The notes below the pieces were generated by a model. It had not been told where the DNA came from. It worked only from the letters and a program-made list of their open reading frames with translations, and did no database searches. Below are positions 4,546 through 25,344 of a DNA stretch of 64,000 nt, piece after piece. Made by a program: the position numbers and the translations under genes. The DNA lies in NCBI RefSeq assembly GCF_900101435.1, contig NZ_FMZH01000002.1, positions 124,001 to 188,000 of the forward strand, written 5' to 3'. The stretch is from Pedobacter soli (GTDB lineage: Bacteria; Bacteroidota; Bacteroidia; Sphingobacteriales; Sphingobacteriaceae). Within the stretch, counting starts at the first letter, position 1. Every line of letters begins with the position of its first letter.

Positions 4546-5244
4546 ATGGATATTAACGAATTTATAGTGCAGGTTGCACTTCCTGAACATCGTGTATTTG
4601 CAGAAGAAATTGTAACCGAGATGGCCGAATCTGCGAAAGCACGTGGTACAGGTATCGCAAAGCGTTCGCCAGAATACATCTCTAACAAGATGCAAGAGGG
4701 CAAATCGGTTATTGCTTTCCACAAAGATGGTTCATGGGCAGGATTTTGCTACATCGAAACCTGGAGTCACGGACAATTTGTGGCCAACAGTGGTTTGGTA
4801 GTAAGTCCAAAATACCGTAAAGCCGGATTGGCCAAAGCCATTAAAAATGAAATTTTCGGCTTATCGAGAAGGTTGTACCCCAAAGCAAAAATCTTTGGTT
4901 TAACAACTGGTTTGGCGGTAATGAAAATAAACTCAGATTTAGGCTACGAACCGGTAACCTACAGCGAACTTACCCAGGATGAAGAATTTTGGAAAGGCTG
5001 CCAGAGTTGCGTAAACTTCGAGATTTTAAAAATGAAGGAACGTAAAAACTGCATGTGCACTGCTATGCTTTACGATCCGGCTGAGAAAAAACACGAAGTT
5101 GCCAAGCAATTTGCCGAAGAACTGCAAAAGAAACCCAAATTATACGAGCGCTTTATGCGCATCAAACAACGTTTGGTTGTTAAACCAAAGCCGAAAACCG
5201 GCTTAAAAGCCCTTTTATTTTTATTTACCCTTTTATTTAAATAG
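4546..5244 (+). CDS. GNAT-family N-acyltransferase heading the arginine operon
   Basis: A 232-residue protein with a GNAT acetyltransferase core: the segment SGLVVSPKYRKAGLAKAIKN (about 84-103) matches the strand-beta4/acetyl-CoA-binding motif R/Q-x-x-G-x-A. A Cys-containing segment (ERKNCMCTAMLYDP) and a basic C-terminal tail (KPKPKTGLKALLFLF) follow. It is the first gene of the arginine operon and stops 1 base before argG. No argA or argJ is visible in the cluster, so this protein is a good candidate for the first step, acylation of glutamate (probably succinylation, given the argF' type). That assignment is inference; the GNAT fold is what the sequence shows. Confidence 0.75.
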   Translation: MDINEFIVQVALPEHRVFAEEIVTEMAESAKARGTGIAKRSPEYISNKMQEGKSVIAFHKDGSWAGFCYIETWSHGQFVANSGLVVSPKYRKAGLAKAIKNEIFGLSRRLYPKAKIFGLTTGLAVMKINSDLGYEPVTYSELTQDEEFWKGCQSCVNFEILKMKERKNCMCTAMLYDPAEKKHEVAKQFAEELQKKPKLYERFMRIKQRLVVKPKPKTGLKALLFLFTLLFK

Positions 5245-18339: not shown

Positions 18340-19764
18340 CTAATCCTCCCTGCTCCCATCATCAGCCATTCTTACCATTTTAGGTTCGAATTTAGCCACC
18401 ACATCAACCAGTTCTGTTTGTGCAGCCATTACTTTATGGATGTCTTTATAAGCCATCGGCGCTTCGTCTATACCCGCACCAATTAAGGTTACGTTATGGT
18501 CTTTCAAAATTGCTTTCATGTCCGATTTGGTGATCGATTGAATGGCTTTCGTCCTGCTCATTTGTCTACCCGCGCCATGCGATGCCGAATTGATTGCGCT
18601 GGTTTCACCTTTCCCTCTAACCAGAAATCCTGGAGCGGTCATACTTCCCGGGATAATCCCCATTACGCCCTTACCGGCCGGAGTAGCGCCTTTACGGTGA
18701 ACAATCACTTCCTCACCGTTAATAAGCTCCTTCCAGGCAAAATTATGATGGTTTTCTACCTTGGCTAAAACTTTTGCACCAATGGCTTTGGTTAACCTTT
18801 TATGAATTACCTCGTGACAGGCCGAAGCATAATCGCCAGCTAAGTTCATGGCAATCCAGTACTCTTGCCCTTCGGCCGTGTTAAGGTCTAAGTAGGCGAG
18901 GTTTGCGGCCTCTTTAGGTAATTTACAGATCTCTTTCGCCAGTTTGGTATAATGACCGGCAATAGTAGCACCTAAACCACGCGAACCGGAATGGGTTAGC
19001 AAGGCTACATAACGACCTTTATCGATATTTAGAACTTCATCGCGTTCGGCAAAATCAATAATCCCCCATTCTACAAAGTGGTTACCACCGCCTGATGTAC
19101 CCAATTGAGCCCAGGCTTTTCCATGCAGGTTTTTAAGGAAAGTAGTTGAGTTAAAAGCTTCGTTATCCAACACCTCGTGCTCGGCTCTTTCCAAACCCCT
19201 AAACTCTCTGCCTGCTCCAAATTTGGTAAAGGCAATCAACTCGCGTTTGTACATGGCATCTTTACCGAAATAATGCTTTTCAGGAATGTCGAAAATACTC
19301 AACGCCATTCGGCAACCAATATCAACGCCTACACCGTAAGGTATAATTGCATTTTTGGTGGCCAGTACACCGCCAATAGGCAAGCCATAGCCTTGGTGGG
19401 CATCGGGCATTAAAGCCCCTGCTACCGATACGGGTAGTTTCATGGCAATATCCATTTGGTTTCTGGCACCTTCTTCAATGTAATCAGGGCCAAATACCGC
19501 GTAGGGTTTGGCATGGCTTACCAGTTCAATGATTTCATCTTTTGGAGCATTGGCTTCTTCAATCATGGCCGTGGCCAGCGGATGTAAAACTGGATCATCC
19601 AAAAAACTTTCGGGATAATCTTTTACTTTTTTAAATAAGGCCAGCAATTCTTTTTCTTCAATATCCGCAAAGTTTGTTTTCAAAATATCCAATGCTAAGC
19701 CTAATATTTTTCCTTCAGTATAACCTGTTTCAAGCAGGTTATTTCCTGTTATGTTGTTTTTCAT
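18340..19764 (-). CDS. rtcB: RtcB RNA-splicing ligase
   Basis: Joins RNA 2',3'-cyclic phosphate or 3'-phosphate ends to 5'-OH ends through a GTP-dependent guanylyl-His intermediate with Mn2+. In 474 residues: PDAHQGYGLPIG (120-131), DIGCRM (148-153) with the metal-binding Asp and Cys, GTSGGGNHF (222-230), HSGSRG (258-263), NHHNFAW (338-344), HRKGATPAG (356-364), and SASHGAGRQMSR (393-404) with the guanylated His at 396. It is the last gene of the minus-strand RNA-repair operon, 11 bases after the second nucleotidyltransferase. No archease or RtcA is nearby. Confidence 0.96.
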   Translation of the reverse strand: MKNNITGNNLLETGYTEGKILGLALDILKTNFADIEEKELLALFKKVKDYPESFLDDPVLHPLATAMIEEANAPKDEIIELVSHAKPYAVFGPDYIEEGARNQMDIAMKLPVSVAGALMPDAHQGYGLPIGGVLATKNAIIPYGVGVDIGCRMALSIFDIPEKHYFGKDAMYKRELIAFTKFGAGREFRGLERAEHEVLDNEAFNSTTFLKNLHGKAWAQLGTSGGGNHFVEWGIIDFAERDEVLNIDKGRYVALLTHSGSRGLGATIAGHYTKLAKEICKLPKEAANLAYLDLNTAEGQEYWIAMNLAGDYASACHEVIHKRLTKAIGAKVLAKVENHHNFAWKELINGEEVIVHRKGATPAGKGVMGIIPGSMTAPGFLVRGKGETSAINSASHGAGRQMSRTKAIQSITKSDMKAILKDHNVTLIGAGIDEAPMAYKDIHKVMAAQTELVDVVAKFEPKMVRMADDGSRED

Positions 19765-19775
19765 TTTTGTTTTTT

Positions 19776-20837
19776 TTAATCGGCATAAAGCGCTGTTCGC
19801 ATCTCAACAAGTAAAGACTCAACTAAAGCAGTATCTGGCTTATCCATGAGCTTGCTTTTGGTTGTTTCTTGTTCAATTTGTTCCATCAGAGCCTCAGCCA
19901 TTTTTAATACCTCTTCGTAATCAAGTTCTCCTCTTTTAATCATGAGTAACTCATCCCGATTTTGTCGTTTTACATTTAATTTTCCATCCCGTACAATCTC
20001 AAGTGCTACTTGTAATAGCCTGATGGTATGCATCATGTTTTTCGAATCATAATCTTTACCATGATTCTTATTTAAACTGTAGCGTTCCTCGTTCCGTTTT
20101 TCTACCCATTCCCAATATTCACTATGCTCCTTGCAGTACGAGGAATAACTATCCTTATTGAAGAATAAATACGCAATTCCCGTTTCCCCAGCGGGGATGG
20201 CAGATACTGAAACTTCATTGGCATTTGTTTTATTTGCTATGCCTTTATAGGGAATGTTTTTTTCATTGTTATAAAATAATGCATAAAGATCTTTGGTGTG
20301 CGAAATTTTTGATAGCCCACAGTTTTCCTGTAGGATATTCCTTTTTTTTAGCCATGCTTTAACTTTAACTGCTGAATAATTTCCTGTTATATAACAAAAA
20401 TCAAGTACTGTTTTTCGAGCTTTTGGCATTGGATTCAAAATCTTTTTATTTAAACCTTTTGCCTTTCTGATCTGGGTTAAAGCATAACCACCAAAAGTAT
20501 CTTTACACAATTTGGACAAGAACATCGCAATGTTTAATTTCTCCATTACGGGATGCTTATATAAAATGCAGTCTTCAGGTGTTGCTAAAATCTCAACAAT
20601 GTTCGGATTATTCTTGATTAACAATTCTACAAAGCGGCCAATTTCATAATAAACCTCATCATTACTCTCATTGCTGATTTGTGGGATATACTTAAAGCCA
20701 AAGAACATGCTTTTAGGCATGTAATAAATACCCTTTATATCTGTATCAGATTCCGGAGTATTTAAGCCATAAGCCTTACTGCCACTTAAACATTCAAATA
20801 ACAAGAGATTTCTATCTTTTAAATCTTTAATTGTCAT
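19776..20837 (-). CDS. Pol-beta-superfamily nucleotidyltransferase, second copy
   Basis: 353 residues. The N-terminus has the nucleotidyltransferase core, CLSGSKAYGLNTPESDTDIKGIYY, with Gly-Ser at 19-20 and the metal-binding Ser-Asp-x-Asp at 30-33. The rest is a long helical region without a motif I recognise. It matches the predicted nucleotidyltransferases (COG3541-like) found with RtcB. It might add nucleotides to damaged RNA 3' ends or modify another RNA or protein; that is inference from the operon. It overlaps the frameshifted first copy by 11 bases and is 11 bases from rtcB. Confidence 0.85.
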   Translation of the reverse strand: MTIKDLKDRNLLLFECLSGSKAYGLNTPESDTDIKGIYYMPKSMFFGFKYIPQISNESNDEVYYEIGRFVELLIKNNPNIVEILATPEDCILYKHPVMEKLNIAMFLSKLCKDTFGGYALTQIRKAKGLNKKILNPMPKARKTVLDFCYITGNYSAVKVKAWLKKRNILQENCGLSKISHTKDLYALFYNNEKNIPYKGIANKTNANEVSVSAIPAGETGIAYLFFNKDSYSSYCKEHSEYWEWVEKRNEERYSLNKNHGKDYDSKNMMHTIRLLQVALEIVRDGKLNVKRQNRDELLMIKRGELDYEEVLKMAEALMEQIEQETTKSKLMDKPDTALVESLLVEMRTALYAD

Positions 20838-21587
20838 AACTCTTTATCGTTTTTCTAAAGAAAATATCCAGGGCTTCCCCGCTAAAACTTTCTTTTGGCA
20901 AGTCTTTAGCGGCTGCACTACATTTTTCAAATTCATGATCGATGTATGTGCTTAACTGAGGAACTATTTTTATCAGAAATCCTTCATTAGAAGTTGATTT
21001 GAGTAAAATAAGTTCGCGAACAATCTCCAGTAAATTTTCAGGCATTAAGGTAATTAACGGTTCAATCGTCATTGGCGCAATAGTGTTTTTTTCTAAGCAC
21101 CATTTTGCTGAAAGTAGTGATCTGAGCACATAAAAAAGCTTTTTATTTTGATTTCTCCTGCATTTGTACCAGTTTCTAATGCACCAAGCGCAATACCCAG
21201 GTAATGGTTAACATTTGTTTTTCTATAAAAGTACTGCTGGCACAATTTCCACAAGTCCTCTTTGAAATGATCGTGCTCCATATAAATTATGGGTGACTGT
21301 AACCATTCAAACGGAGTTGTATTTGATTTTCTGATCAGTTTGAGCACTTTCCTTATATCCCAGCCATTGATATCAAGTTCATTATTAATTGGGAAATCAA
21401 GATGATCCGGGCTATCAGAAACCGATAAATAATCATCCAAAGGGCGTTTATAAATAAACCTTACATCATAATCGCTATCTGGTGACGGGAATTGCCAACC
21501 TCTACTTCCAGACTCACAGGCAAATAATATTTTGATGTTGTGTGCGCATTCTATTTCGCCAAGTTTCCTTATTATCTCGGTTTTCAT
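20827..21587 (-). pseudogene. Pol-beta-superfamily nucleotidyltransferase, first copy, split by a frameshift
   Basis: Two frames together make one protein of about 250 residues. The first (ATG 21587) has LFACESGSRGWQFPSPDSDYD, with Gly-Ser at 27-28 and Asp-Ser-Asp-Tyr-Asp at 37-41. It leaves frame after GEIKIK. The second frame, with one extra A in the A5 run (T5 on the plus strand at 21140-21144), continues as KKLFYVLRSLLSAKWCLEKN, which matches the KKYFYVLRPLLA-like segment of the family as I remember it, then runs to the stop at 20827. So either one A was lost, or it is a homopolymer error. It is the first gene after the Y-RNA array. Confidence 0.8.
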
Positions 21588-21602
21588 TTTTCTCTAATTA
21601 AT

Positions 21603-21634
21603 CCCCGGCAGGTAACATTCACCATGCCAGGGGG
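21603..21634 (-). promoter_or_regulatory. Strong hairpin between the Y-RNA array and the first nucleotidyltransferase gene
   Basis: On the minus strand CCCC (21634-21631), GGCA (21628-21625) and GGT (21623-21621) pair with ACC (21613-21611), TGCC (21610-21607) and GGGG (21606-21603), an 11-bp interrupted stem. No T run follows, so it is not a typical terminator. It lies 15 bases before the ATG at 21587 and could mark processing of the Y RNAs from the mRNA or affect translation start. Confidence 0.5.
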
Positions 21635-21658
21635 CTTCTAAATTTAATCATTTTAATT

Positions 21659-21726
21659 AATGAGGCTACAAGCACAAAATGTATCAAACTTTTTGGACGA
21701 AGTAACATTTAGCAACGGCACTCATT
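21659..21726 (-). ncRNA. Y-RNA-like ncRNA 6 (bare hairpin form)
   Basis: Shortest member, about 68 bases, last in the array. The core TGYCGT-N8-GTTACTTCG is present (GTTACTTCG at 21706-21698). Pairs: AATGAG with CTCATT at the ends, GTTGC with GTAGC (with wobbles), and AAATGT with ACATTT. The loop region TACTTCGTCCAAAAAGTTTGAT has no T-arm or D-arm, so the tRNA-like part is absent while the presumed Ro60-binding stem is kept. Confidence 0.7.
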
Positions 21727-21747
21727 TTTTTGCGAGAGCGTAATCAT

Positions 21748-21841
21748 TTAAGAGCAATACTGGCAAGTGTATATTTACTAGCAGGATTCGAACCTGCACT
21801 ATATTCAACCCTCGAAGTAACACTTGACAACGGCATCTTAA
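21748..21841 (-). ncRNA. Y-RNA-like ncRNA 5 (T-arm only)
   Basis: About 94 bases. The ends TTAAGA and TCTTAA pair, and CAAGTGT of the N8 region pairs with ACACTTG. The core GTTACTTCG is at 21821-21813. A perfect T-arm, GCAGG-TTCGAAT-CCTGC, lies at 21797-21781. No D-arm or acceptor-like hairpin follows; the chain returns directly to the stem. Confidence 0.8.
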
Positions 21842-21853
21842 TTTTTTAATGAA

Positions 21854-21985
21854 CAGAAGCAAAAAGCAACAAAAGTTTACGGGGCATGTCGTTGCCGGAG
21901 TCGAACCGGATAATCTTGCTGGCTTTACAACTTCATTATTCCTCCCCTCAATTGCGACGAAGTAACTTTTATTTACGGCATTCTG
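21854..21985 (-). ncRNA. Y-RNA-like ncRNA 4 (divergent interior)
   Basis: About 132 bases. CAGAA pairs with TTCTG at the ends, GTAAA with TTTGC (one wobble), and AAAAG with CTTTT. Core GTTACTTCG at 21966-21958. The interior has a T-arm CCGG-TTCGACT-CCGG enclosed by GTTG/CAAC and by GGGG/CCCC, but no D-arm; an anticodon-arm-like TTGTAAA precedes the T-arm. The architecture differs from copies 1-3. Confidence 0.75.
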
Positions 21986-21997
21986 TTTTTATTATAG

Positions 21998-22125
21998 ATA
22001 AGGCAATAGGTGATAAAAGACATTTCCCCATGTTCTAAAACTTAAACTATTCTGCGTTGGCAGAAGCTGGAATTGAACCAGCATCCTGGGCTTGAATCGA
22101 AGTAACTTTTATCTACGGCACTTAT
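21998..22125 (-). ncRNA. Y-RNA-like ncRNA 3 (permuted tRNA-like, weak D-arm)
   Basis: About 128 bases. ATAAG pairs with CTTAT at the ends, and GATAAAAG pairs with CTTTTATC (8 bp). Core GTTACTTCG at 22106-22098. T-arm GCTGG-TTCAATT-CCAGC at 22082-22066, then a 6-bp hairpin TTCTGC-CAAC-GCAGAA in the place of the acceptor stem, then TA and a D-arm-like GTTT...GAAC whose loop lacks the Gly-Gly pair of G bases seen in copies 1 and 2. Confidence 0.85.
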
Positions 22126-22142
22126 TTGGTATTTTAATTAAA

Positions 22143-22272
22143 GCAAGGTAAATGACAAAAAGAGACTATTTTTCCTGCTCTACCAGCTGAGCTACCCATT
22201 TACATGGGGCAGGGCTCGAACCTGCGACACGGGCATTAAGAGTGCGAAGTAACTCTTCTTTACGACACTTGC
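22143..22272 (-). ncRNA. Y-RNA-like ncRNA 2 (full permuted tRNA-like)
   Basis: About 130 bases. GCAAG/CTTGC, GTAAA/TTTAC and AAGAG/CTCTT form the long closing stem, with TGTC bulged on the 5' side. Core GTTACTTCG at 22253-22245. T-arm GCAGG-TTCGAGC-CCTGC at 22225-22209, a 5-bp hairpin CCCAT-GTAA-ATGGG replacing the acceptor stem, then U8-A9-like TA and a canonical D-arm GCTC-AGCTGGTA-GAGC. The order T-arm, capped acceptor, D-arm is a circular permutation of tRNA, with the open ends at the anticodon stem. Confidence 0.9.
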
Positions 22273-22307
22273 TTGTTTTCTGTTTTTTATTTTTTTTCTA
22301 TAATTAG

Positions 22308-22434
22308 GCAAGGTTAAAGGCAAAAGAGACTGTTTTCCTGCTCTACCATTGAGCTATTCTGTTTAAAGAAGTAGGATTCGAACCTACAACCAGGGCGACC
22401 TGAATGCGAAGTAACTCTTTTTAACGACACTTGC
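22308..22434 (-). ncRNA. Y-RNA-like ncRNA 1 (full permuted tRNA-like)
   Basis: About 127 bases, first in the array after the Ro60 gene. GCAAG/CTTGC, GTTAAA/TTTAAC and AAGAG/CTCTT form the closing stem. Core GTTACTTCG at 22415-22407. T-arm GTAGG-TTCGAAT-CCTAC at 22387-22371, a 4-bp hairpin TTCT-TTAAAC-AGAA, then TA and D-arm GCTC-AATGGTA-GAGC. A small CAGG/CCTG hairpin precedes the T-arm. From memory, the core resembles the 5' strand of vertebrate Y RNAs (CCGA-N9-GUUA), the part bound by Ro60. Confidence 0.9.
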
Positions 22435-22456
22435 TTTTCTATAAATGTTTTTTAAT

Positions 22457-22482
22457 ATCCCACAGTCATTTTACTGTGGGAT
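22457..22482. repeat. Perfect hairpin between the Ro60 gene and the Y-RNA array
   Basis: ATCCCACAGT (22457-22466) and ACTGTGGGAT (22473-22482) form a perfect 10-bp stem with a 6-base loop, 4 bases past the TROVE stop. On the minus strand it is followed by ATTAAAAAAC, not by T, so it is not a normal terminator for that strand. It may protect or process the 3' end of the Ro60 mRNA where the ncRNA part begins. Confidence 0.6.
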
Positions 22483-22486
22483 GGGT

Positions 22487-24004
22487 TTATATTTCAATTC
22501 GACTTATTTTCTCGAGCGCAGAAACTGCATCTTCCATTCCTGAAAGGATATCAAAAATTTTATCAGACCAACCAGCCAACAAATACACATCATTTTGTCT
22601 AACATCTACCGGTTGGTTACTGTAGCCAGCTAAATCGAACAAATACAATTTGGCATTTGGTGCGATTTCTTTGTATCTAGACCACGAGTTTGCAAAAGTG
22701 CTGTTGGTGTTATTGTTATTCCACATTTGCGTATCGGTAAATATCATCACCTTATCAGTAACCTTTCTTTGTCTTATTAAGTCATCGATTACCAGATATC
22801 CATTTGTAGCATAGCCAACTTCACCTTCACGTCTGTAATATTCCATCACATTGGCTAAAACATTTTGTTTAGGCATATTGATTACTTTATAAGTATCGCC
22901 AAACATACCAGTGGTTACATTTTTGCATTGCGACTGAAGTAACATGGCTAACATTAAGCCTATATCGTACAACAACACAGTACTTCTTGCTGAAACTGGT
23001 TTTTGCATTGATCCCGAAACATCGCAGGCAATTACAATTGAAGTATCAAATCCAAAGCCTTTTATGTTCTTTGCGCTACACATTACTGCATTTTCCAGGG
23101 CATCTAACATGGCTGACGTAAAGCTCGATTTAATTGATTTTAACTCTCTGTATGCAGACAAAAATCTGAACGGAAGTTGTCTCGAATTTAAAACCGCTTT
23201 TTCATTAGCCAGGTAATCGCAAACCAGCTCAATGTGCTTAGCCGAAACATTAGCTTCTAAAATATTACGCAGGTTTCTTAGCATAGCCATGTAGCCGATC
23301 TTTTTGCTTTCTATCATCTCCTCCCATTTTCTGGTTACTGCTAATGCTCTGGCAGCTTCATTTGCAAATCTGTTTTTACCTAAAGCAGAAAGTTCAGTTT
23401 CCCAGGTGTATGGCGTATCCAGGCTATCAGATGCGATCTTGTTAAAAATAGCTTGCTGAGCAGCATTTTTAGCTTTAGGGTGTACCAGAAACAAAGCATC
23501 CTTTAATTTTACCGCTGCATTTCTATTGTATTTGGCAAATTGGTACTCATCAAAATTGTTAAAAGCTCCTATCAAACCTTTTTGTATTTGTTTTGAAAGC
23601 TTATTCAGCTTTTTGATTTCAGTTCGCTCGTTTGCAATTTGATAGTAAGCCAACATTTCAGTGATCTCATCTGCACGTAAAACAACTCTGTTAACAGTTC
23701 TACTCACAAGTGAGTTACCTGATGTTTTTTTGGCCAGCTCTACCGATAAAACCATTGGTATGGATCTTAAATTCATTTCCGTTCTGGCGTAAATAGCCAG
23801 CCTGGCAATAAATTCAGGGCTACATTTTTCAATTAAAGCTTTGAGCCTTTCTAATCTGGTATTTCCAGCTTCGTAAAACGAATCGTTCAATCCTGTAGTA
23901 ACAACTGCAGTATACAATTCCATTTCAGGACTCATCACGAATGCTTTTGCATCTTCATGATTTTTTGTTAGCTGTCTGTTTTTGTTAAAAAAATTGAATT
24001 TCAT
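22487..24004 (-). CDS. rsr: Ro60-like TROVE-domain protein (Rsr)
   Basis: A ring-forming RNA-binding protein, relative of animal Ro60 and Deinococcus Rsr, which binds Y RNAs and misfolded RNA and works with exonucleases. In 505 residues, the N-terminal TROVE domain of helical repeats (about 20-310, with LERLKALIEKCSPEFIARLAIYAR) is followed by a von Willebrand factor A domain with the MIDAS motif DVSGSM at 328-333 and FTDTQMWN later. The array of Y-RNA-like elements starts right after its stop, with nucleotidyltransferases and rtcB further on, all on the same strand. The divergent WYL gene probably controls it. Confidence 0.94.
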   Translation of the reverse strand: MKFNFFNKNRQLTKNHEDAKAFVMSPEMELYTAVVTTGLNDSFYEAGNTRLERLKALIEKCSPEFIARLAIYARTEMNLRSIPMVLSVELAKKTSGNSLVSRTVNRVVLRADEITEMLAYYQIANERTEIKKLNKLSKQIQKGLIGAFNNFDEYQFAKYNRNAAVKLKDALFLVHPKAKNAAQQAIFNKIASDSLDTPYTWETELSALGKNRFANEAARALAVTRKWEEMIESKKIGYMAMLRNLRNILEANVSAKHIELVCDYLANEKAVLNSRQLPFRFLSAYRELKSIKSSFTSAMLDALENAVMCSAKNIKGFGFDTSIVIACDVSGSMQKPVSARSTVLLYDIGLMLAMLLQSQCKNVTTGMFGDTYKVINMPKQNVLANVMEYYRREGEVGYATNGYLVIDDLIRQRKVTDKVMIFTDTQMWNNNNTNSTFANSWSRYKEIAPNAKLYLFDLAGYSNQPVDVRQNDVYLLAGWSDKIFDILSGMEDAVSALEKISRIEI

Positions 24005-24076: not shown

Positions 24077-24097
24077 CCACCAGCCCTACGCGAAGGA

Positions 24098-24109
24098 ATT
24101 GCGCAGTTG
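24098..24109 (+). promoter_or_regulatory. Operator-like copy 1 of ATTGCGYARTTG
   Basis: ATTGCGCAGTTG, one of three near-identical 12-mers in the 287-base divergent gap between the Ro60 operon and the WYL regulator. It is nearest the Ro60 promoter. Binding by the WYL protein is inference from position and repetition. Confidence 0.5.
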
Positions 24110-24190
24110 GAAATATTTTGCAGTTTTTTAATTAACCTGTTGATTTTTAGTTTAATAAAATTTAATTTATGATTGAATTTGTGTTTTTGG

Positions 24191-24221
24191 TACGCAATTG
24201 CGCAATTGTATTGCGTAGTTG
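24191..24221 (+). promoter_or_regulatory. Tandem operator-like copies 2 and 3 with a palindrome
   Basis: ATTGCGCAATTG (24197-24208) and ATTGCGTAGTTG (24210-24221) are direct repeats with a 1-base gap. They overlap a 14-bp perfect palindrome CAATTGCGCAATTG (24195-24208) and a longer inverted repeat TACGCAAT/ATTGCGTA (24191-24198, 24210-24217). A candidate WYL-gene promoter (TTG 24211, TATCTTTA 24235-24242) overlaps the pair, as expected for autoregulation. Confidence 0.55.
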
Positions 24222-24291
24222 TATGAAACTTAGTTATCTTTAACAGAGACTTAAATGCCAGATTTTTAACTTCGACCATAAAACCCACAAA

Positions 24292-25344
24292 ATGGCCATC
24301 AATAAATTAGCCCTCATTCGCTACAAAACCATCGACGATTGTTTGAGAAATCGTTTCCGTAAATGGACGCTCGATGATATTATAGAAAAGGTTGCCGAAA
24401 CGCTTTACGAGCTGGAAGGTATAACCAGCGGAGTAAGTAAGCGTACCATACAGGCCGACATTCAGTTGATGCGAAGCGATAAATTGGGTTACAATGCGCC
24501 TATTGTGGTAAAAGACAAGCGATTTTATGCCTATGAGGATACCGGTTTTAGCATTACAAAAGCACCGATTAATCATGCCGATGTAGATAAAATGAAAGAA
24601 ATTGTTGGCGTGCTAAAGCAGTTTAATGCTTTCAATTATTTCGACGAGATGAGCGATATGATTGCCCGTTTAGAAAACAATCTTTATAAATCGACCAAAC
24701 AGAGTGGCAATAACATTCAGTTAGAAAGCAATAAGCTGGTGAAGGGGATCGAATGTATTCCGCCACTTTACCAGGCTGTTTTGAATAAACGATCCTTGTT
24801 GATTGAATATAAATCCTTCAAGGCAAAACAGGCTCAACAGGGCATTTATTTTCCCTACCTGCTAAAAGAATACCGTAACCGCTGGTTTTTGATCTGTAAG
24901 GCTAAAAAACGACCAGGAATTCTCAATTTAGCACTTGACCGGATTGTTGAATTTCAGGAATTGCCCAATGAAGAATTTTTAGCCTATGAAGGGGTCGATT
25001 TCGACCGTTATTATGATGATTTGATTGGGGTGACCAAAAACCAAAGAGACAGGGCGCAAAAAGTTATATTGGAGTTTACCAACGATCATGCACCCTATGT
25101 AATTACCAAACCTTTGCATACTTCGCAGGTAATATTGAACAAAAATGATAAAACTACCGTTTTCAGAATAGATGTTGTACTGAATTATGAGCTGGAACGC
25201 GAGATTTTGGGTTTTGGAGAATGTGTTAGAGTGCGTTCGCCAAAATTGCTGATCTGGAAAATAAAAAAACGTTTGCAGCAAACTTATGAGCAGTATGAAA
25301 CCATCCAAAAGGAAAATGATACTGTTGAAAATACCACAACTTAG
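24292..25344 (+). CDS. WYL-domain transcriptional regulator
   Basis: 350 residues. An N-terminal winged helix-turn-helix (about 1-70, RKWTLDDIIEKVAETLYELEG, then SKRTIQADIQLMR) is followed by a WYL domain (about 155-240, LLIEYKSFKAKQAQQGIYFPYLLKEYRNRWFL with the ligand-binding Arg/Trp pattern) and a C-terminal WCX-like part (VILEFTNDHAPYVITKPLH). WYL proteins sense nucleic-acid or nucleotide ligands in several defence and repair systems. It is divergent from the Ro60 operon across a gap with three operator-like repeats, so it is the likely regulator. Confidence 0.9.
   Translation: MAINKLALIRYKTIDDCLRNRFRKWTLDDIIEKVAETLYELEGITSGVSKRTIQADIQLMRSDKLGYNAPIVVKDKRFYAYEDTGFSITKAPINHADVDKMKEIVGVLKQFNAFNYFDEMSDMIARLENNLYKSTKQSGNNIQLESNKLVKGIECIPPLYQAVLNKRSLLIEYKSFKAKQAQQGIYFPYLLKEYRNRWFLICKAKKRPGILNLALDRIVEFQELPNEEFLAYEGVDFDRYYDDLIGVTKNQRDRAQKVILEFTNDHAPYVITKPLHTSQVILNKNDKTTVFRIDVVLNYELEREILGFGECVRVRSPKLLIWKIKKRLQQTYEQYETIQKENDTVENTTT

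Follow-up and report, generated by a model that had tools for sequence, protein, structure and literature searches.

The window analysed here, a 64,000-nucleotide stretch of the Pedobacter soli genome, carries a Ro60 operon on its minus strand, with an array of six predicted RNA units lying between the Ro60 gene and the genes of its partners. An earlier, sequence-only reading of this DNA had proposed Ro60 and rtcB as the neighbours of the array, and Pfam agrees, naming TROVE and vWA_Ro60, RlaP and RtcB. The genes and accessory features of the locus are the following:

24292..25344, plus strand: divergent WYL/WCX regulator (PF13280 7.6e-10, PF25583 2.7e-8)
22487..24004, minus strand: Ro60 (Rsr) protein, 505 aa, TROVE and vWA_Ro60 (PF05731 4.4e-32, PF25045 6e-8)
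22456..22483, minus strand: 11-bp hairpin in the gap from Ro60 to unit 1 (listed as terminator-like, on the plus strand)
21603..21635, minus strand: hairpin past unit 6, ahead of RlaP (direct reading)
21093..21587, minus strand: RlaP nucleotidyltransferase, first piece (PF10127 1.3e-49)
20827..21129, minus strand: RlaP, second piece of the same gene (PF10127 6.8e-9)
19776..20837, minus strand: second RlaP-family protein, intact, 353 aa (PF10127 1.1e-21)
18340..19764, minus strand: RtcB RNA ligase, 474 aa (PF01139 2.5e-79)

The predicted Ro60 model (pLDDT 82.8) matches solved Ro60 structures, including 9kop, 9l5y, 1yvp, 9nep and 2nvo. The first RlaP gene (20827-21587, minus strand) is split by a frameshift into two overlapping frames; it is a single 253-aa frame in the loci L007, L008, L013 and L022, and the split may be due to faulty sequencing or mark a young pseudogene. 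Among 30 loci with long flanks we find a WYL homologue in 21 (window counted), RtcB in 17 and RlaP in 7, so the repair partners vary between loci. We infer that the WYL/WCX regulator is a candidate switch for the operon. By eye, palindromes around CAATTGCGCAATTG and GCGCAATTCCTTCGCG can be seen between the regulator and Ro60 (window 24090-24230), a candidate operator.

Promoter signals between 21500 and 24320 number 8 where 8.2 are expected, which is no more than chance, and a Bacteroidota-type promoter pattern has no match in this region. Terminator-like sites in the same interval number 4, with 2.3 expected. The hairpin at 22456..22483 may serve as a processing site. Hairpins like the one at 21603..21635 are present, by eye, in L007, L008, L009, L013 and L022.

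The array itself consists of six exact, minus-strand copies of the motif TGYCGT-N8-GTTACTTCG, flanked by the Ro60 gene and the RlaP/RtcB genes (21587-18340). They lie where the sequence-only reading had located them, with zero mismatches, and the spacer is exactly 8 in all six, as it had claimed. When up to two mismatches are allowed the window still holds 6 matches, compared with a mean of 0.09 and a maximum of 1 in dinucleotide shuffles, and the exact motif is absent elsewhere in the 6.0 Mb assembly. Each copy opens a stem-closed unit of 68-136 nt; the 68-132 given previously had the lower bound right and the upper bound too short once the stems were closed. The units, with the payload classes described below, are:

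22308..22434, minus strand: unit 1, class A, handle and permuted tRNA (T arm, acceptor-like helix, D arm), 127 nt
22141..22274, minus strand: unit 2, class A, handle and permuted tRNA, 134 nt
21998..22125, minus strand: unit 3, class A, handle and permuted tRNA with a variant D arm, 128 nt
21852..21987, minus strand: unit 4, class B, handle and GGGG/CCCC-closed module with central hairpin and T arm (a second T-arm class), 136 nt
21748..21841, minus strand: unit 5, class C, handle and T arm only, 94 nt
21659..21726, minus strand: unit 6, class D, handle and 16-nt payload, almost bare, 68 nt

The class order in the window is thus A A A B C D. That units 1-5 contain tRNA arms, and that the payloads differ from unit to unit, had escaped the sequence-only reading.

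What the units share is a handle, composed of an outer helix, a U bulge, G-C and Y-R pairs, an internal loop, an 8-bp inner helix and UUACUUCG. The outer helix has 5-8 bp and the inner helix about 8, formed by the paired flanks of each motif; between the two, the 5′ side reads TGYCGTA and the 3′ side usually has nine bases, GCNNNTTRC. Over a collection of 252 units from many loci, the motif spacing is 8 in 233, 9 in 17 and 10 in 2. A T stands four bases before the outer 3′ strand in 252/252 units, at a position that was left unscored.

The evidence for folding is covariation. The single-sequence folding energies are ordinary (z from -0.26 to -1.86), so covariation rather than stability has to carry this point. 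With the Y-R pair left out of the score, the Y of TGYCG pairs with the R of TTRC in 136 of 138 distinct units from 36 loci (89 C-G, 43 T-A, 4 T-G and 2 unpaired), and in a further 51/52 units from 31 additional loci. These are recounts; the previous figures, 133/135 (Fisher p 6e-29, inflated by relatedness) and 50/51, were obtained with a score that slightly favoured GC in the spacer. Kinship among the sequences inflates covariation statistics of this kind. For an alignment of 76 of the 77 class A units then collected, RNAalifold recovers the handle, the T arm, the acceptor-like helix and the D arm, with changes on both sides of the helices. The covariation in the flanking helices proposed by the sequence-only reading therefore holds on a wider set, and the paired positions are conserved in relatives, which that reading had expected of true RNAs.

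The array can be set beside other Ro60 loci. A scan of GTDB genomes for Ro60 relatives yielded 35 loci; in these and the window, a loose handle pattern occurs 129 times, in every case on the Ro60 strand, and the reversed pattern has 1 match. Another 40 stretches were added, and three duplicates and a stretch lacking Ro60 were dropped, which left a set of 72 loci. A two-strand handle finds 252 units in 65 of these, 0 on the opposite strand and 1 in the reversed-sequence control; in the other 7 loci no unit is detectable. The earlier proposal of Y-RNA-like structured units beside Ro60 is upheld by this strand-strict association. Since 13 of the 72 loci were picked by the motif itself, copy numbers are best judged on the 59 others, window included, that were picked by Ro60: units are present in 52 of them, with at least two in 49 loci and at least six in 8, and the unit-bearing loci range from 1 to 8 with a median of 4. 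Six in a row, described earlier as unusual, is high, not rare. Ro60 is itself accessory, being found in 31 of the 394 genomes of a phylum sample; within the genus, a count by eye gives 19 of 145 genomes with at least two clustered matches of the pattern.

Ro60 relatives are also found in 93 of 50,697 phage records, and we scanned ten phage, archaeal-virus or plasmid loci with a looser handle pattern. Caulobacter phage CcrColossus has 7 handle-like units beside its TROVE gene, Rhizobium phage TM30 has 4, and Brevundimonas and Xanthomonas phages have 1 each; on reversed sequence the looser pattern gives 3 matches in the CcrColossus locus and 1 in the Brevundimonas phage. In their place beside a TROVE gene the CcrColossus and TM30 units resemble those of the window, but CcrColossus has G-C, a third pair type, at the Y-R position in 7/7 units, and in TM30 this position is unpaired in the register found. 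The looser handle has 0 matches in LR745206, crAss001 and csAssE-Sib. Single matches in a Halobaculum plasmid, HGTV-1 and cr111_1 (scores 37.2, 30.6 and 26.2) were not counted, as their covarying position is unpaired. Among the matches listed for IMG/VR contigs all are single, with no handle arrays.

Some phage loci deserve a separate description. The seven CcrColossus handle units lie upstream of the TROVE gene (L319 1847-2910), one of them overlapping a tRNA-Gln that the record annotates at 2161-2228. Rfam finds a tRNA match in crAss001 (46.6 bits), split by an 82-nt insertion that contains, by eye, a handle. This tRNA-like RNA (L320 4552-4695) has no listed feature and, unlike the window units, keeps the native tRNA order, with the handle apparently in the anticodon arm. 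A second tRNA-like RNA can be seen by eye near 4808-4950.

The placement of the units bears on whether they are RNAs in their own right. One could suppose that they never exist as separate RNAs and are folded parts of the operon mRNA through which RlaP and RtcB are regulated, an idea favoured by their position within the operon and by the lack of internal promoter signals above chance. Most units (239/252) do lie downstream of Ro60. In some Bacteroidales loci, e.g. L028, L031 and L034, they instead start 1.6-2.2 kb before the Ro60 end, just upstream of the gene, and the CcrColossus units are likewise upstream. This makes a purely regulatory mRNA element very unlikely.

Several known systems invite comparison. 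One is YrlA (RF02553), which also adjoins Ro60/Rsr in an RNA-repair operon, also has both ends forming a stem and, like units 1-3, carries a permuted tRNA-like module of T arm, acceptor-like helix and D arm. The Rfam match is confined to that module: unit 1 reaches 38.1 bits (22337-22394, E 1.2e-6) and unit 2 38.5 bits (22174-22232, E 9.3e-7) with a cut-off of 69, both matches span the tRNA-like part and exclude the handle, and units 3-6 have no match. The handle letters TGYCG..TACTTCG are missing from the printed Rfam consensus. Animal Y RNAs (RF00019) share a YCG ... GUUA layout in the 5′ strand of the end stem and a bulged helix (PMC4030889). They are printed as CCGA-N10-GUUA in a human fragment (PMC5331234) and as CCGA-N10-GUUU in another Y RNA (PMC4619022), while the window units read YCGT-N8-GUUA, two bases shorter in the same counting. 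The Rfam animal model has 0 matches in 21600-22500 at E up to 10. A covariance-model search with YrlA and Y RNA models, suggested by the sequence-only reading, thus gives matches below the cut-off on two units with the former and none with the latter; the animal likeness that it drew is partly supported, the layout being shared while the spacing differs and the model has no match. Other Rfam matches in the array (GIR1, lncRNA, snoRNA, ribozyme and tmRNA) are far under their cut-offs and were treated as chance.

According to the review PMC4030889, Ro60 binds primarily at a bulged cytosine, which bacterial Y RNAs retain. The handle as predicted agrees with such a bulged-helix site, and we infer that it docks on Ro60. 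Broadly, the six units are predicted to be bacterial Y RNAs.

The payloads that the handle carries fall into a few classes, which we assigned by our own rules: among 252 units, 105 are class A, 34 class B, 30 class C and 42 class D, and 37 are unassigned. The rest are rare types, two 23S H69-H71 payloads, one from the 23S GTPase centre and one tRNA opened at its D loop. Class A has the parts of a tRNA in permuted order, T arm, then an acceptor-like helix closed by a loop, then D arm; RNAalifold finds several pair types at many of its positions, with the T-loop letters UUCGA and the D-loop letters GGUAGA kept. In class B (25 sequences) a GGGG/CCCC helix closes a module that holds an inner hairpin and a T arm. 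Where classes co-occur, B is ahead of C in 15/18 loci and of D in 21/23, and C is ahead of D in 14/18, counts which are not independent because the loci are related; the loci outside this order are reversed or mixed. The place of class A is variable, before B in 14 loci, after it in 13 and mixed in 2.

The permuted order raises a further alternative, namely that the units are pre-tRNAs which RtcB circularises into working tRNAs. The T arm of class A does precede the D arm, the acceptor-like helix is loop-closed, and RtcB is in the operon. A T and D arm module is present in units 1-3 and absent from units 4-6, however, which fall far short of complete tRNAs, ARAGORN finds 0 tRNA genes in the window, and by eye there is no CCA end or stable anticodon stem. 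We regard this as extremely improbable. An RF00005 match at 22201-22272 (29.5 bits, cut-off 29) straddles the handle and the module of unit 2.

Individual payloads can be traced to particular parts of tRNAs. The T arm of unit 5 is 15/15 identical to that of a tRNA-Pro of the same genome, the payload start of unit 2 resembles a tRNA-Lys/Asn anticodon loop, and unit 6 is 13/15 identical to the genome's tRNA-Trp around the anticodon, a weak match (E 0.025). With a library of 166 tRNAs from the loci collected, an anticodon-spanning 10-mer is found within the first 20 payload bases of 17/252 units, where 50 shuffles have a mean of 2.1 and a maximum of 6. In 12 of these 17 the register is the same, payload base 1 corresponding to tRNA position 31, and 40 further units match only tRNA positions other than the anticodon. 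The string CT-NNN-[AG][AC] stands at the payload start in 51/252 units, where 200 shuffles average 11.7 and reach 21 at most. We also considered whether payloads in general form a 7-nt anticodon hairpin with the handle end, and set this aside because such a hairpin is only weakly enriched.

In relatives the copying extends to ribosomal RNA. The payload of unit -1795 in L028 is 82.5% identical to E. coli 23S 1049-1111 over 63 nt and matches the Rfam LSU_rRNA_bacteria model at 1079-1158 with 63.9 bits (cut-off 50), all model pairs being kept. The payload of L026 +1038 equals 23S 1913-1943 at 31/31 positions, and that of L011 +1499 matches 23S 1919-1943 at 92% of 25. By 23S numbering, the first of these stretches corresponds to the GTPase-associated centre and the other two to H69-H71. 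The three payloads score 65.2, 49.7 and 34.3 bits, and the best of 2760 shuffled payloads 28.1; the Rfam LSU search, at E up to 0.01, does not flag L011 or L026. For these two we also asked whether a permuted 23S domain IV continues past the 25-31 nt match, and rejected it, as the rest is not consistently above shuffles: L011 versus E. coli over 23S 1650-1792 is narrowly above all 200 shuffles, and the other three of four comparisons are not. We limit the claim for L011 and L026 to the short match because their remaining payload has no reliable 23S similarity. Such payloads are rare, being known from three genomes, all metagenome-assembled, and a search for further ones refound each pattern in its seed genome only (1/301 and 1/296 genomes). 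The handle strands pair across each 23S payload, which argues against assembly chimeras.

Starting from the handle, its covariation, its Ro60 and strand link at the loci examined and the payload classes, all of them read from sequence, we propose that the array is a set of Y RNAs sharing a Ro60-docking handle and differing in payloads that act as interchangeable tethers; we would give this a probability of about 0.55. The units would be cut from one Ro60-operon transcript, and every unit would dock on the Ro60 ring by the shared handle. Its payload would then capture the protein that normally recognises the corresponding piece of translation RNA, be it the tRNA elbow, the anticodon loop or (in relatives) a domain of rRNA. 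This would bring Ro60, along with RtcB and RlaP from the operon, to different factors for decay, modification or repair.

A constant handle with a strict link to Ro60 makes Ro60 docking the likely shared step. Since the payloads differ yet are conserved, the most economical second step is a partner specific to each payload, as in the Rsr-Y RNA-PNPase machine (RYPER) of Deinococcus. That parts of translation RNA recur as payloads suggests partners with an affinity for tRNA elbows, anticodon loops or domains of rRNA. Deinococcus would be the template, multiplied: the proposed principle of a Ro60 handle joined to an effector-binding module is the same, but PMC6340977 and PMC8394870 describe a single Y RNA with a single partner, whereas the window array has six units. 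Tethering by Y RNAs has precedent in these papers and in PMC8058203. The Salmonella rsr-yrlBA-rtcBA operon is similar in combining Ro60, Y RNAs and RtcB with a divergent regulator, and differs in its components: it has a pair of Y RNAs, with RtcA and with a sigma-54 activator, where the window has six units with differing payloads, RlaP proteins and a WYL regulator (PMC9879122).

Several results given above weigh against the tether model: the ordinary folding energies, the promoter count at chance level, the 7 Ro60 loci in which units are not detectable, the accessory nature of Ro60, the inconstant repair partners and the unpaired position in TM30. Units 5 and 6 also speak against tethering, since they offer little or no payload to tether with. 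They would suit a role in which the handle only blocks the RNA-binding surface of Ro60, with payloads as neutral caps and a dose that depends on copy number, as would the frequency of nearly bare units (42 class D in 252). Neutral caps require neither a conserved payload structure nor an order that tends to persist across loci, though, and both are seen, so we think such a gate unlikely to be the whole function.

The chief rival to the tether model is a decoy or damage-sensor role. Here the payloads would be a panel of baits for toxin-cut tRNA and rRNA sites, held by Ro60 near RtcB and RlaP, and would soak up a nuclease or report damage. The presence of these enzymes in the operon, the excess of anticodon-loop starts over chance by both counts and the 23S sites of relatives all fit. 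Yet the same counts leave most payloads without a clear anticodon loop, and the 7-nt hairpin adds little. Furthermore, activation of an anticodon nuclease in Salmonella gave no YrlA fragments in the experiment reported in PMC7790460, whose authors allow that YrlA might still be a competitive inhibitor. We consider a bait panel possible, if doubtful.

Combining elements of capture and sensing, the Ro60 systems of Bacteroidota and phages might together form a display library, in which one handle presents many parts of the translation machinery as a panel of look-alikes that captures or senses RNA handlers or damagers near repair enzymes. The parts on show would be tRNAs opened on the anticodon side or in the D loop, the T arm alone, the anticodon loop, the 23S GTPase-associated centre and 23S H69-H71. 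This is a tentative generalisation, one that we find quite conceivable without expecting it. The range of payloads is the unexpected part of these results; six copies are not exceptional. The titles and abstract openings that we searched, which did not cover the main bacterial Y RNA papers, contain no report of arrays or of rRNA-like Y RNA payloads.

According to PMC7790460, functional work on bacterial Ro60 and Y RNAs was, as of 2020, confined to Deinococcus, and as of 2023 the account in PMC9879122 gives no known RNA substrate for the Salmonella complex. The role of bacterial Ro60 outside Deinococcus is thus largely open, and a constant dock with a variable payload makes the tether idea directly testable. 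Payloads derived from 23S would widen bacterial Y RNAs from tRNA mimics to general mimics of translation RNA, and would point to ribosome-associated partners.

Finally, some additional observations concern payloads and arrays. The L028 +103 and L030 +104 units (a Bacteroidales MAG and Prevotella sp. P5-50) share a conserved 152-nt payload that has 0 Rfam matches at E up to 0.5. By eye, payloads of L305/L111, L114, L269, L270, L276 and L277 resemble tRNAs whose opening lies in the D loop, and that of L289 +554 has the native tRNA order (D, anticodon and T arm), as though the acceptor end were the point of grafting. In L007, the closest relative of the window (Ro60 96% identical), unit 3 lacks its 3′ half (+359 to +453 after Ro60), which by eye is a natural partial deletion within the array.
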